Positions 23,704 to 28,446 of a stretch of 64,000 nt of DNA are shown piece after piece. The stretch lies in contig JABAQT010000069.1 in assembly GCA_019187195.1 (NCBI GenBank), positions 1-64,000 on the forward strand, written 5' to 3'. Below the pieces are notes generated by a model. That model searched no databases. It was not told the DNA's origin and saw only the letters and a program-made list of their open reading frames with translations. Numbering within the stretch: the first letter of the stretch is position 1; the number at the start of each line of letters is the position of its first letter. The position numbers and the translations under genes are program-made. Origin of the DNA: Bryobacteraceae bacterium (lineage in GTDB: Bacteria > Acidobacteriota > Terriglobia > Bryobacterales > Bryobacteraceae).

Positions 23704-24564
23704 GTGAGAAAGACCTACATCAAGCGGCAGTTCGGTCCCACCGTCAGCTATTGGGCGCAGACGGAAGTGCATGTCTACGGATTTTCGATCGCGGCGAACG
23801 TACTGCTGTCGTTTTTTCCGTTTCTCATCGTGATGGCGAGTCTGTGCAAGTACGTGCTGCACTGGCCCGCGGCCGTGGACGCGCTGTACTTCGCGTTAAG
23901 GGACATTTTCCCCGGCCAGTTGAGTGAATTTCTGGTCCGCAATCTGGCGTTCGTCATCGCCAAGCGGGGGCCTTTTCAGTATATTTCGGTGCTGGTTCTC
24001 ATTTTCACGGCGAATGGCGTGTTCGAGCCGCTCGAAGTTGCGCTGAACCGCATCTGGAACGTGAAGACGAATCGCAGCTTTCTACGCAATCAACTGGTGA
24101 GTCTGGGGCTGATCTTCGCCTGCGGATCGCTGATTCTCTTGTCACTGATTCTGACGGCGGCAAACCGGCTGTTCCTGGCCAAGGCGTTGCCTCCGGACTG
24201 GGCGGCTACATCCTGGGCGGCGAGCGCCTTTTTCCGCATCGCGGCGCTTCCGGTAACGATGCTGGTTTTGTTTCTGATCTACTGGCTCCTGCCGAACACG
24301 AAGATCTCTCCGTCGCGCGTGCTGCCGGTGGCGATTCTGGTGGGAATCGCGATCGAGGTTCTGAAGTCAGTAACGGTGATCTTCTGGGAGCCGATCAATG
24401 AGAAGTTCTACCTGGAATACGGGCCGTTCGAGTACTCGGCGATTCTGGTGTTCTGGTCGTTTTTGGCGTCGATGCTGGTGCTGGCGGGAGCGGAATGGGC
24501 GGCGCGGCATGGGATCGAGGTGAAGGCGGAAGCCGAGCAGGCGGATACGATAGCGGGAGGTTAG
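23704..24564 (+). CDS. YihY/BrkB-family inner membrane protein
   Basis: This 286-aa protein starts at GTG 23704. It has about six membrane helices and family motifs such as 'ANVLLSFFPFLIVMASLCKY', 'LVLIFTANGVFEPLEVALN', 'YWLLPNTKISPSRVLPVAIL' and 'FEYSAILVFWSFLASMLVL'. The family was once called RNase BN, but that activity was reassigned; its real role (possibly transport or envelope) is unknown. The next gene starts 5 bases after its stop. Confidence 0.88.
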   Translation: MRKTYIKRQFGPTVSYWAQTEVHVYGFSIAANVLLSFFPFLIVMASLCKYVLHWPAAVDALYFALRDIFPGQLSEFLVRNLAFVIAKRGPFQYISVLVLIFTANGVFEPLEVALNRIWNVKTNRSFLRNQLVSLGLIFACGSLILLSLILTAANRLFLAKALPPDWAATSWAASAFFRIAALPVTMLVLFLIYWLLPNTKISPSRVLPVAILVGIAIEVLKSVTVIFWEPINEKFYLEYGPFEYSAILVFWSFLASMLVLAGAEWAARHGIEVKAEAEQADTIAGG

Positions 24565-24569
24565 CAGGG

Positions 24570-25136
24570 TTGTCCCGGCTTCTCGATCCCTATATGCCGC
24601 GGCCGGATGTGAGCGACCTGCACGAGGTCATGGTGGAGGCGCCGGCGGAGTTTGTTTTCCGCACTGCCTGCGATTTCGACATGGAGTCACTGGCGGCGGT
24701 GCGCGCCATCATCCGGCTGCGGGAAGTGTTGCTGGGGGCGGCGCGGAAGGAGAGACGCCCGGCGGGAATTATCGAAGACACGCTGCGTATGGGCTGGGGC
24801 AAGCTCGAGGAGGAGGTTGGACGGCATTACGCGGCGGGGGCGGCGTGCCGGCCGTGGGAGGGGAACGTGGTGTTCCATCCGATCCCGGCGGAGCAGTTCT
24901 CGACGTACGCCCATCCGGGCGAGGTGAAAATCACCTGGACGTTGGAGGTGGAGGCTCTCGCTCCCGCGAGGAGCCGCTTGACAGTGGAGACGCGCGCGGC
25001 GGCGACGGATGCCGCGGCGCGGCTCAAATTCCGCCGGTACTGGCGATGGGCGTCGCCGGGCATTCGCCTCATCCGCCGCCTGTTGCTTTCAGCGGTAAGG
25101 CGGAAGGCGGAGCGGGAGTGGCAACGGCGGGCCTGA
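24570..25136 (+). CDS. Small SRPBCC-fold-like hypothetical protein
   Basis: From TTG 24570 (GGGAGG at 24555-24560 just before) the product is 188 aa; ATG 24594 is the alternative start. Pattern 'HEVMVEAPAEFVFRTACDF' at the N-terminus and alternating beta strands ('EVKITWTLEVEALAPARSRL', 'TVETRAAATDAAARLKFRRY') resemble the START/SRPBCC ligand-binding fold, as in polyketide-cyclase-like proteins. The C-terminal 'YWRWASPGIRLIRRLLL' is an amphipathic helix. Function is unknown. It is five bases after the YihY gene, so the two are probably co-transcribed. Confidence 0.7.
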   Translation: MSRLLDPYMPRPDVSDLHEVMVEAPAEFVFRTACDFDMESLAAVRAIIRLREVLLGAARKERRPAGIIEDTLRMGWGKLEEEVGRHYAAGAACRPWEGNVVFHPIPAEQFSTYAHPGEVKITWTLEVEALAPARSRLTVETRAAATDAAARLKFRRYWRWASPGIRLIRRLLLSAVRRKAEREWQRRA

Positions 25137-25144
25137 AGCGGAGG

Positions 25145-26875
25145 CTACTTGCGGGCGAAGCTGCGCTTCACTATTCCCGGCTGCAGGCGTTCGGCGCGGT
25201 CGAGATCCGCCTGGGCGCTGATCTCGTCGCCGGCGTTGATTTTCAGCGTGGCGCGGTAGAGAAAGGGAGTAGCGTTGCCAGGCGCGAGGAACGCGGCGCG
25301 GTCGAGGTCCCTCAGGGCATCCGGCGCGCGCCGAAGTTGCATGAGGACAAAACCGCGATTGACGTAGCCCGAATACATGTCGGGGGCGAACTCGACGGCG
25401 AGGTCCAGATCAATGAGCGCTTCAGCGAACCGGCCGAGCATGATGTAGGACATGCCGCGGTTGTTGTGAGCGCGGACGTCGTGTGAATCGAGCGCGAGAG
25501 CGCCGTTACAGTATTTCAGAGCCTGGGCGGGCTGCCCTTTGCTGTTGTGGACGTTGCATGCGTTGACGCGCGCGGCGACGGTGGAAGGACTTAGCTGAAT
25601 TGCCCGCAGGTAGTCGGCGAGGGCGAGATCGAGTTCACCAAGGTTCTCGAGAAGGAGGCCGCGCTCATTGAGGGCCTGCCACCAGGGATGGGACTCGATG
25701 GCGGAGCTGAGAACGCGGAAGGCGTCGTCATTGCGGCCCGCCGCGCGATATACCTGGCCGGCGATTGTAAGGCAGAAGGTGTTGTGGGAATCCCTGGCGA
25801 GGGCGGATTCCACGTCCCGCAAAGCGCCCGGCATCTCACCGGAGGCGGCGAGCAGGCGGGCCCGGCTGCAGAGGGCGAGCGCGTAACCAGGCTTTGCCGC
25901 GATCGCTTCCGAGTAGGCGGCAATGGCTCCCGCCATGTCGCCCGCATCCTCCCTGGCGGCGGCGTCGTGGAAGGATTTTTCGGCGGCCTTGGGAGTTCCT
26001 TTTTCCGGACGGGTGGCGAGGGGAGTCTCCTGATAGAGTTTGCGCTCTCTCTCCGCGAGCAGGCGCCGGGCCTGAAGAGTATGCAACCCGTTGGGATACT
26101 GTTTGAGGTAGGCGCGCAGGGCATCCGCGCCACTGTCCTGACGGGCCTCCAGCCAGGCCTTGTGCCCGGCGGCGGCTTCGGAATCGGAAAGGGCGGCCTG
26201 CCTTGCCCCGTCGAAGAAGAAATCCGCGGTGAGCGAATCGCCCGCCCAGGGCGTCTGCTTCGCCGCCGGGTCGAGCATGGTCTGATGGCGGGCCTCGAGG
26301 TATGCCTCTTCAAGACTCGAGTGGGCGCCGAGAGCGGCAAGCAGTTTCGTGGTGAACGGCGAGTTCGGACCCTTCCAGGCTGTCTCGCCACACTCGGATT
26401 GGGAAGAGGCGAAGGCGAGAAATGTGCCCGGAGCGCCATAGAGATTCGTGAGGTAGACCGTTTGGCCGCTCTTCACGAAGCCGCCCTCGATGAGAAGGAT
26501 ACGAGTGGCGGCGCCGCCTGCTTCCAAGGTGCGCATCAACTCCACCAGGGGGATGGCGGATTTCGGATCGGGCTTGCCGCCCGAGTAAGCCGCGGGCAGC
26601 AACTGAACGTCACTGCCGTAATCAGCGCTCTTGCCCGAGTAGTAGAACAGAACAGTGCCGGTCTGTTTGGCCAGTGCGGCAACGGCCGCGCGGAGGTCTT
26701 CGGGGCCGGGGTTTTCGCGGGCGTCCACGGCGAAGCGGAACTGCTCGAGCCGGGCGCGCATGGCCTGGGAATCGGACTTGGAGAAGGGGTGGTTGGAGTT
26801 CGAGATGAGCAGCGCATGCCGGGGTTCAGCCGCGGCGGCCAAAGCCAGCAGCGACCAACCTATGAGGGGCAGCAT
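25145..26875 (-). CDS. Secreted TPR protein with a degenerate (catalytically dead) caspase-like domain
   Basis: This 576-aa protein has a signal peptide (MLPLIGWSLLALAAAA), a caspase-like (peptidase C14) domain at about 18-235 and TPR repeats at about 295-565 ('ALALCSRARLLAASGEMPGA', 'GRNDDAFRVLSSAIESHPWW', 'VRAHNNRGMSYIMLGRFAEA'). In active members the catalytic His sits in 'YYSGHG'; here it reads 'FYYSGKSADYG' (K82). The catalytic Cys of 'DAC' reads E-G-G (130-132, 'RILLIEGGFVKS'). 'NSPFTTKLLAAL' still marks the fold. So it is a pseudo-enzyme, probably a periplasmic scaffold; partners are unknown. It stands alone. Confidence 0.85.
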   Translation of the reverse strand: MLPLIGWSLLALAAAAEPRHALLISNSNHPFSKSDSQAMRARLEQFRFAVDARENPGPEDLRAAVAALAKQTGTVLFYYSGKSADYGSDVQLLPAAYSGGKPDPKSAIPLVELMRTLEAGGAATRILLIEGGFVKSGQTVYLTNLYGAPGTFLAFASSQSECGETAWKGPNSPFTTKLLAALGAHSSLEEAYLEARHQTMLDPAAKQTPWAGDSLTADFFFDGARQAALSDSEAAAGHKAWLEARQDSGADALRAYLKQYPNGLHTLQARRLLAERERKLYQETPLATRPEKGTPKAAEKSFHDAAAREDAGDMAGAIAAYSEAIAAKPGYALALCSRARLLAASGEMPGALRDVESALARDSHNTFCLTIAGQVYRAAGRNDDAFRVLSSAIESHPWWQALNERGLLLENLGELDLALADYLRAIQLSPSTVAARVNACNVHNSKGQPAQALKYCNGALALDSHDVRAHNNRGMSYIMLGRFAEALIDLDLAVEFAPDMYSGYVNRGFVLMQLRRAPDALRDLDRAAFLAPGNATPFLYRATLKINAGDEISAQADLDRAERLQPGIVKRSFARK

Positions 26876-27036
26876 GGCTCGAGTGTGTCATGACAATTGC
26901 TTTACAAGAATAGAGGGAACGCCGTAATCAGGGATTGCAATCGCTTTGGCCCATGCTTAGCTCCCGCTCCATTCGCGGGTGCTGGAGGGCACCCCATTGC
27001 ACGTCCAATTTGGGGTTCGATAGACTCAAAGCAGCC

Positions 27037-28446
27037 ATGCCTAAGAAGGTTTCTCCGTCTGATGCCCCCAGCCGTAAGGCTACTAACGCTAATAAAGCTG
27101 ATCACAGTGATTTGACCCGCCGGGAGGCCGTGCAGACAGCGGGCGCCGCCGTTGCGGTGGCGGCTTTGGCAAGCACGGTGGAATTTCCGAGGATTCAGAA
27201 GGTGAGGGCCGCCAACAGCGTGGTGAACTACGCGGTGATAGGAACGGGCAGCCGCGGGACGTATCACCTCAAGCACTGGAAAAATATCGACAATTCGCAG
27301 TGTATCGCCATCTGTGACATCAGCGACGAGGCGCTGAAGAAGGCTCTTCCCGAAGCGCCGGGCAAGCCGCAAACATACAAAGACTACCGCGAATTGCTGT
27401 CGCGCAAGGATATCGACGCGGTGCAGATTGCGACGCCGCTGTACACTCATTTCGCGATCACCAAGGATTCGCTTCTTGCCGGCAAGCACGTATTTTGCGA
27501 GAAGAGTCTCGTTTTCAAGGCGGATGAGGTCGGCGCGTTGCGTGCGTTGGTGGCCGAGCGGCCGAAGCAAGTCATGCAGGTGGGCCTGCAGCGGCGCTAC
27601 AGCGAGTTTTACCAGACGGCGAAACAGATGGTCGACAAGGGCATGATTGGCGACGTCACGCACGTCTACGCGCAGTGGAACCGCAACCCGGGGTGGGTGT
27701 TCAAGAAGACGGCATGGCGGCTGTTCAAGGAATATTCGGGCGGGTTGACGGCGGAACTGGCGTCACACCAGATCGACGTGGCGGACTGGATGTTTGGTTC
27801 GCATCCGGAGTTTGTCGTGGGGGTGGGCGGCATCGACTACTGGAAGGATGGCCGCACGGTTTACGATAACATCCAACTGATCTTCAAGTACCCCAAGGGC
27901 CAGAAGCTGATGTACAGCGCGATCAGCACGAACAAACATCTCTCGATGTTCCAGGGTGAACGGACGGAGTTCGGCGAGCGGATCATGGGGACGCAGGGGA
28001 CGATCGAAATCACGGTGGGCACGGACAACGAACCGGCGCTCGGATTGTGGTACTACGAACCCGGTCCGAAGGTGGAGGCGGCGGCCAAGAAAGAAGCCTC
28101 GGCGCCGGCCTCGGCATCGCTGATGAGCACCGGGAAGGGCGGGAGGCCGCTGCCCATTCTGCTCGCCAAGGACCAGATTGGGGAAAATGACGGCTTCCTT
28201 TCCAAGGAAATGAAGTTCGCGCGGCGGTGGCTCTATTCGAAGGGCGTGATGACGCCGGAGGAGACGAGGAACCCGGTGGATGTCCAATTGGAAGAGTTCC
28301 TCGATTGTGTCCGGACGGGAAAGCGGCCGAAGGCCGATATTGAAGTGGGCCTGGCGGATTCGACGGCGGTGATTCTGGCGAACATCGCCATGGATGAAGG
28401 CCGGCGCGTGCGCATGGATGAGATCGATAAGATAGGCAAGGCCTAA
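27037..28446 (+). CDS. Secreted Gfo/Idh/MocA-family oxidoreductase (Tat signal)
   Basis: From ATG 27037 the product is 469 aa. A twin-arginine signal ('LTRREAVQTAGAAVAVAALA') precedes the NAD(P)-binding Rossmann fold ('VVNYAVIGTGSRGTYHLKHW') and the C-terminal substrate domain. The Lys of the family motif EKP is kept, but the motif reads EKS (155-157, 'VFCEKSLVFKADEV'). Substrate is probably a sugar or sugar derivative (family knowledge). It is followed after 38 bases by a second member of the same family; the two may form an operon. The open frame extends upstream to 26935 but without signal-peptide logic. Confidence 0.88.
   Translation: MPKKVSPSDAPSRKATNANKADHSDLTRREAVQTAGAAVAVAALASTVEFPRIQKVRAANSVVNYAVIGTGSRGTYHLKHWKNIDNSQCIAICDISDEALKKALPEAPGKPQTYKDYRELLSRKDIDAVQIATPLYTHFAITKDSLLAGKHVFCEKSLVFKADEVGALRALVAERPKQVMQVGLQRRYSEFYQTAKQMVDKGMIGDVTHVYAQWNRNPGWVFKKTAWRLFKEYSGGLTAELASHQIDVADWMFGSHPEFVVGVGGIDYWKDGRTVYDNIQLIFKYPKGQKLMYSAISTNKHLSMFQGERTEFGERIMGTQGTIEITVGTDNEPALGLWYYEPGPKVEAAAKKEASAPASASLMSTGKGGRPLPILLAKDQIGENDGFLSKEMKFARRWLYSKGVMTPEETRNPVDVQLEEFLDCVRTGKRPKADIEVGLADSTAVILANIAMDEGRRVRMDEIDKIGKA

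Follow-up and report, generated by a model that had tools for sequence, protein, structure and literature searches.

The gene at 25145..26875 on the reverse strand of the 64,000-nucleotide stretch of Bryobacteraceae DNA analysed here (the window) raises the question of what a bacterial caspase homologue can do for its host once the residues needed for cutting are missing. A sequence-only reading had described the product as a secreted protein with a dead caspase-like (C14) domain and a TPR tail, and this description was followed up by computational means.

Domain structure and the former active site

ORF reading, Pfam and the orthologues identify the whole gene as 576 codons plus a stop, encoding a pseudo-orthocaspase with a TPR tail. 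The frame starts with ATG, has no internal stop and includes the stop codon within its coordinates (all protein features below lie on the same reverse strand). A putative signal peptide occupies residues 1-17 (MLPLIGWSLLALAAAAE, 26825..26875), as judged from the sequence, the hydropathy and a helix at residues 7-16 of the model. Residues 1-16 form a hydrophobic stretch, AAA stands ahead of Glu17 and the hydropathy reaches 2.07 over 12 residues; the n-region carries no positive charge. Obvious signal sequences are present on intact caspase relatives within the same bacterial family. A signal peptide, and hence export, is plausible on this pattern, and secretion would follow from it.

The caspase-fold (C14, p20-like) domain covers residues 18-222 (26210..26824), on the evidence of Pfam, AF2 and a match to MALT1. 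Peptidase_C14 (PF00656) was found at residues 19-220 with an E-value of 1.8e-10 and 41.4 bits, versus a curated cut-off of 21.4. Since phmmer gave chance matches only when the domain was compared with the PDB sequences, a fold comparison was needed. An AF2 model of the domain was built from an alignment of 19 caspase domains and reached a pLDDT of 77 and a pTM of 0.80; because intact caspases were included in this alignment, the Pfam match serves as the independent evidence for the fold. The best Foldseek matches of the model were MALT1 and then caspases 9, 4, 6, 7 and 11. In VIA-align MALT1 gave a Z of 23.1 with an rmsd of 2.2 over 190 residues, and the other caspases, caspase-7 and -9 included, a Z of about 21 (range 20-23 with MALT1). 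When the full-length protein was modelled from the four orthologues alone, the TPR part was good and the caspase part was of low confidence, and the matches of a fold search with this model were filled by TPR proteins. The caspase fold claimed from the letters alone was thus borne out by a Pfam score above cut-off and by the likeness of the model to MALT1 and the caspases; the predicted structure, proposed earlier as a check, is caspase-like and leaves the claim standing.

C-terminal to this domain, Pfam and the full-length model show nothing but a helical linker and TPRs. The linker (residues 231-276, 26048..26185) was recognized in that model and by a W...YLkqYPnGl motif, which is also present behind intact orthocaspases (e.g. 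L021, L026). Eight TPRs and a capping helix follow at residues 296-576 (25148..25990), supported by Pfam, the full-length model and a fold match. TPR_1 was matched at 6.8e-26 and 89.4 bits versus a cut-off of 27.8, and many TPR families matched over approx. residues 300-569. In the full-length model the helix pairs span residues 296-564 and the capping helix residues 568-575, and the modelled TPR part resembles the TPR superhelix of O-GlcNAc transferase (Z 26.7). The TPR tail of the sequence-only reading is therefore confirmed by both Pfam and the superhelix model.

Alignments with intact caspases and with the orthologues place Lys82 (26630..26632) at the position of the catalytic His, and Glu130-Gly131-Gly132 (26480..26488), followed by a shortened loop, at the position of Asp-Ala-Cys. 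In the His column the window protein reads FYYSGKS versus YYAGHG in intact caspases of the same order, both in the alignment and in a profile alignment. The Asp-Ala-Cys column reads RILLIEGG versus IVILDACR in the same intact caspases, and about six residues are missing behind Glu-Gly-Gly. Further on, NSPFTTKLLAAL (residues 171-182) aligns with NGLFTxxLxxAL of the intact enzymes. The catalytic His and Cys required of an active orthocaspase are thus absent (Lys82, Gly132), as had been claimed, and the alignments show the same loss in the three orthologues. In a pseudo-orthocaspase, by definition, the p20 domain carries a substitution at one or both residues of the dyad (PMC6426788), and by its sequence the window protein is a member of this already published class. 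Since both catalytic residues are gone, binding without cleavage is very probably the protein's mode of action.

The acidic character of the pocket seems to have been kept. Asp35 (26771..26773) falls in the same column as the invariant Asp in the NDA motif of intact caspases, a column that does not vary across the alignment of 19 caspase domains, and is a probable specificity-pocket acid. The acidic pocket residues of TbMC2, Asp95 and Asp211, are retained in pseudo-orthocaspases whatever the dyad (PMC6426788). Judged by motif position, Asp35 and Glu130 would correspond to them, and since Glu130 stands at an Asp position, the pocket would remain acidic through a conservative Asp-to-Glu exchange. 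Glu is found at this position in all the orthologues.

Orthologues, selection and the locus

The gene was detected in 4 genomes, all from one genus, and was absent from 8 of the 12 genus genomes searched. The three orthologues are 84-86% identical to the window protein, share Lys82 and Glu-Gly-Gly with it and have the same neighbours. The search for orthologues with the same changes, suggested by the sequence-only reading, was thereby successful and excludes a sequencing artefact. Outside the genus, neither the 257 genomes searched from the order nor a 396-genome sample of the phylum yielded an orthologue. The nearest matches there (L079-L086) were intact His-Cys enzymes; the strongest relatives elsewhere in the phylum were all intact.

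The dN/dS values were 0.12-0.17 between the window gene and its orthologues and 0.11-0.13 among the others, and the TPR part (about 0.10-0.15) was as constrained as the remainder of the protein. The gene is under purifying selection, which together with the open frame agrees with the earlier view of an intact 576-codon gene. In the segments around the former active site (residues 76-95 and 124-148) 2 of 45 columns vary, versus 30 of 160 at the other domain positions (Fisher p 0.019, for regions picked post hoc and four close sequences). No part of the caspase domain is better conserved than the remodelled site, and since it is the ruined site that is kept best, a mere loss of function is unlikely.

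The neighbouring genes encode a BrkB/YihY-type membrane protein, two Gfo/Idh/MocA oxidoreductases, a UPF0047 protein and a DUF4139 protein, and the gene order on both sides is common to the orthologue loci. In four sister species (G004, G006, G008 and G011) the BrkB/YihY-type and Gfo/Idh/MocA genes lie 80, 77, 55 and 48 bases apart, measured between match ends. Only the segment that precedes the oxidoreductase (TTCGATAGACT...ATG) is found between the flanking genes of these empty-site species, and the TTCGATAGACT segment is also present in the window just before 27037. Since the flanking genes nearly adjoin in four sister species, the gene appears to have entered one species group. Most simply, one gain at this site, in the common ancestor of the species that carry the gene, would account for the pattern; a clean loss in several other species would be a less simple alternative.

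Two frames close to the gene deserve mention. For the oxidoreductase ORF at 26935-28446 (+ strand) the probable start is the ATG at 27037, behind the conserved TTCGATAGACT element, rather than the TTG at 26935. A small ORF without Pfam match (24495-25136, + strand) sits between the BrkB/YihY gene and the pseudo-caspase; since it was matched in L042 alone, and in neither L041 nor L043, a separate arrival or loss is indicated.

A promoter and terminator scan of the pseudo-caspase gene gave nothing beyond chance, and no partner gene adjoins it. The cell-death or defence setting suggested earlier was not supported, because no defence gene occurs among the neighbours and the best match of the window protein to the PADLOC models (0.0077) was at chance level and within the TPRs. 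The locus was therefore ruled out as a defence island.

Dead caspases in the family and in the literature

In the bacterial family 164 of 237 genomes encode a C14 protein over the cut-off. The dyads of 159 distinct C14 domains were read: 117 had His-Cys and 42, the four Lys/Gly domains included, lacked it, in a sample that is enriched for dead domains because one search targeted them. The other dead caspases amount to at least 38 domains from 24 genomes and 9 genera, and their dyads are YA, YP, YT, YS, YE, YG and HS. Most of these domains belong to one clade, formed in the tree by twenty representatives with support 100/99 (members of this main dead clade are L129, L140, L141, L150, L152, L171, L174, L186-L192, L199-L221 and others), and several members carry an FGE-sulfatase tail. 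Since L130 (Tyr-Ser) is nested in an otherwise intact clade, also with support 100/99, catalysis has been lost at least twice in the family. The treatment of the window protein as a singular case cannot be maintained: dead caspases have already been described as a class (PMC6426788, PMC3501461) and are frequent in this family.

The stem of the Lys/Gly group is very long (2.4-3.4 changes per column). For one tree, constraining the search with 9 dead relatives improved the result by 22.8 log units over an unconstrained search (p-AU 0.85); in a more careful tree the group stood in a polytomy. The AU test gave p 0.455 for kinship with the dead clade and p 0.466 for kinship with the TPR-tailed intact clade, so that on these trees the group may equally well be joined to either.

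Several further caspase loci were observed. A degenerate caspase-like domain adjoins an intact caspase in L044 (frame - 0, first 445 aa) and L019 (frame + 1, first 417 aa), and in L105 (frame - 1) it lies behind an intact caspase in the same ORF. In a profile alignment the degenerate domains of L044, L019 and L105 read Tyr-Asn, His-Gly and Leu-Ser; these may be active/inactive pairs. L032 (G025:C39:7293-7544) is a caspase fragment close to a contig end with Arg at the His position (FYYSGRATS). L038 (G014:C227:20436-21107 region) is an intact caspase followed by tandem PPAIRQFA-EP-SIERGRPATLRWSV repeats, and the genome G262 (C121, C155, C196, C231, C254, C300) has at least 11 C14 matches, several of them clustered on one contig.

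A 2012 report described dead caspase homologues from prokaryotes (PMC3501461), and the name pseudo-orthocaspases was given in 2019, when they made up 858 of 9,994 orthocaspases (PMC6426788). Among the closest published counterparts are the FS-type proteins of Rhizobiales (PMC6426788), which likewise combine a p20 domain lacking the His-Cys dyad with TPRs at the C-terminus and retain the pocket acids. However, their dyad is Phe-Ser and not Lys-Gly, and the window protein differs from them in the shortened loop behind the old Cys, in its phylum and in a host family without phototrophy marker. SyOC from Synechocystis PCC 6803 and the genus's Tyr-Gly variants (PMC7889975, PMC6426788) are also dead with Gly at the Cys position, but they are cyanobacterial and have Tyr instead of Lys at the His position. 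Deletion of SyOC raised the oxidative stress tolerance of Synechocystis (PMC7889975). Within the family, the main dead clade shares dead dyads, an exported appearance and an extra C-terminal part with the window protein, but its dyads are YA, YP, YT, YS, YE or HS and its tails are FGE-sulfatase domains or unassigned, rather than TPRs. The intact orthocaspases with TPR-like tails (e.g. L019) have the same fold and the same order of caspase and TPRs, but possess the His-Cys dyad. TPR-CHAT (Csx29, Craspase) also combines TPRs with a caspase-like domain. However, it is a CHAT and not a C14 protein, an active protease and CRISPR-linked (PMC10028731); no CRISPR-linked context was found at the window locus.

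Alphaproteobacteria and Cyanobacteria account for 90% of the pseudo-orthocaspases, and a link with photosynthesis has been proposed (PMC6426788). BchL was used as a marker at its curated cut-off alone, since a search at a loose E-value was unspecific and matched general P-loop ATPases in nearly all genomes and in all controls. None of the 237 family genomes passed the cut-off, so the hosts are very probably not phototrophic; 1 of the 14 control genomes passed, a cyanobacterium being expected as the one. The family argues against the link as a general rule. The word Acidobacteria is absent from the text of PMC6426788, and the combination of orthocaspase with Acidobacteria was not found in the literature searched. 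Nor is a Lys-Gly dyad named in the article texts searched; 862 pseudo-orthocaspases are listed in the supplement of PMC6426788. Judged by these texts, the novelty lies in the Lys/Gly dyad, in the phylum and in a non-photosynthetic family as the home of many dead caspases; pseudo-orthocaspases, TPR-tailed ones included, were known.

Proposed role and competing explanations

We assign a probability of about 0.55 to the reading that the gene product is a proteolytically dead orthocaspase, probably exported, which acts by binding; the binding scaffold proposed in the sequence-only reading is consistent with this. The former active-site cleft, in which Asp35, Glu130 and Ser80 are kept, would serve as a surface for a ligand or partner, on which a peptide or protein would be held but left uncut. 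Published pseudo-orthocaspases have retained an acidic pocket (PMC6426788), and the pocket acids assigned here by motif position would point to ligand binding. The eight-repeat TPR superhelix would hold a second partner, and the protein would probably be an assembly scaffold with two binding sides, located at the outer face of the inner membrane.

The main rival is a regulator similar to c-FLIP, in which the dead domain would pair up with a catalytically active orthocaspase in the cell and turn its activity on or off. In animals, regulation by pseudo-caspases is established; some relatives (L044, L019, L105) have a degenerate caspase domain next to an intact one or following it; and an obvious partner exists. 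Apart from the dead protein, a single C14 protein of the genome (G000:C3:18044-18733) exceeds the Pfam cut-off, a 722-residue frame with intact His-Cys and with PEGA and TPR domains. However, the two genes do not adjoin each other, same-genus genomes without the dead gene (G005, G007, G008, G011) also have C14 matches of comparable strength, and the tree places the dead and intact domains on separate branches. Moreover, orthocaspases, unlike metacaspases, by definition lack p10, a contributor to dimers in animals. On balance we consider such a regulator unlikely. Still less probable is that the TPRs alone matter in an exported TPR protein whose caspase domain is a passive structural cap; the dN/dS of the TPR part would suit it, but the best conservation at the ruined active-site segments would be left unexplained.

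The protein might still be an enzyme, with different chemistry or a relocated catalytic residue such as Cys162, the only Cys of the domain, which is conserved in all four orthologues together with a strongly conserved site. This seems quite improbable, since Cys162 stands 30 residues past the old Cys position, in a loop that aligns with the APGxTADDN segment, no His is kept at the site, and the Lys, the Gly and the loop loss each remove C14 chemistry. Finally, the long stem branch and the absence of the gene from two thirds of the genus genomes could point to a dying gene or to a sequencing or assembly artefact. Since the same residues and intact frames recur in four separately assembled genomes, dN/dS is low (0.11-0.17), the gene order is conserved and the ruined site is kept best, both were rejected and their probability is negligible.

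The preferred reading of a binding scaffold can be extended to the family, tentatively and at somewhat less than even odds. This very probably non-phototrophic family of Acidobacteriota may have turned the caspase fold into a standing set of non-proteolytic exported ligand-binding modules, with catalysis lost at least twice (perhaps three times, if the Lys/Gly group is the third), and the TPR-fused Lys/Gly form may represent a scaffold subtype of its own, acquired by one species group at a single site. A general role of pseudo-orthocaspases as binding modules outside photosynthesis becomes testable in this way. The Lys/Gly-TPR protein, with its single copy, its defined insertion site and its empty-site sister species, offers a clean case for deletion and pull-down experiments.
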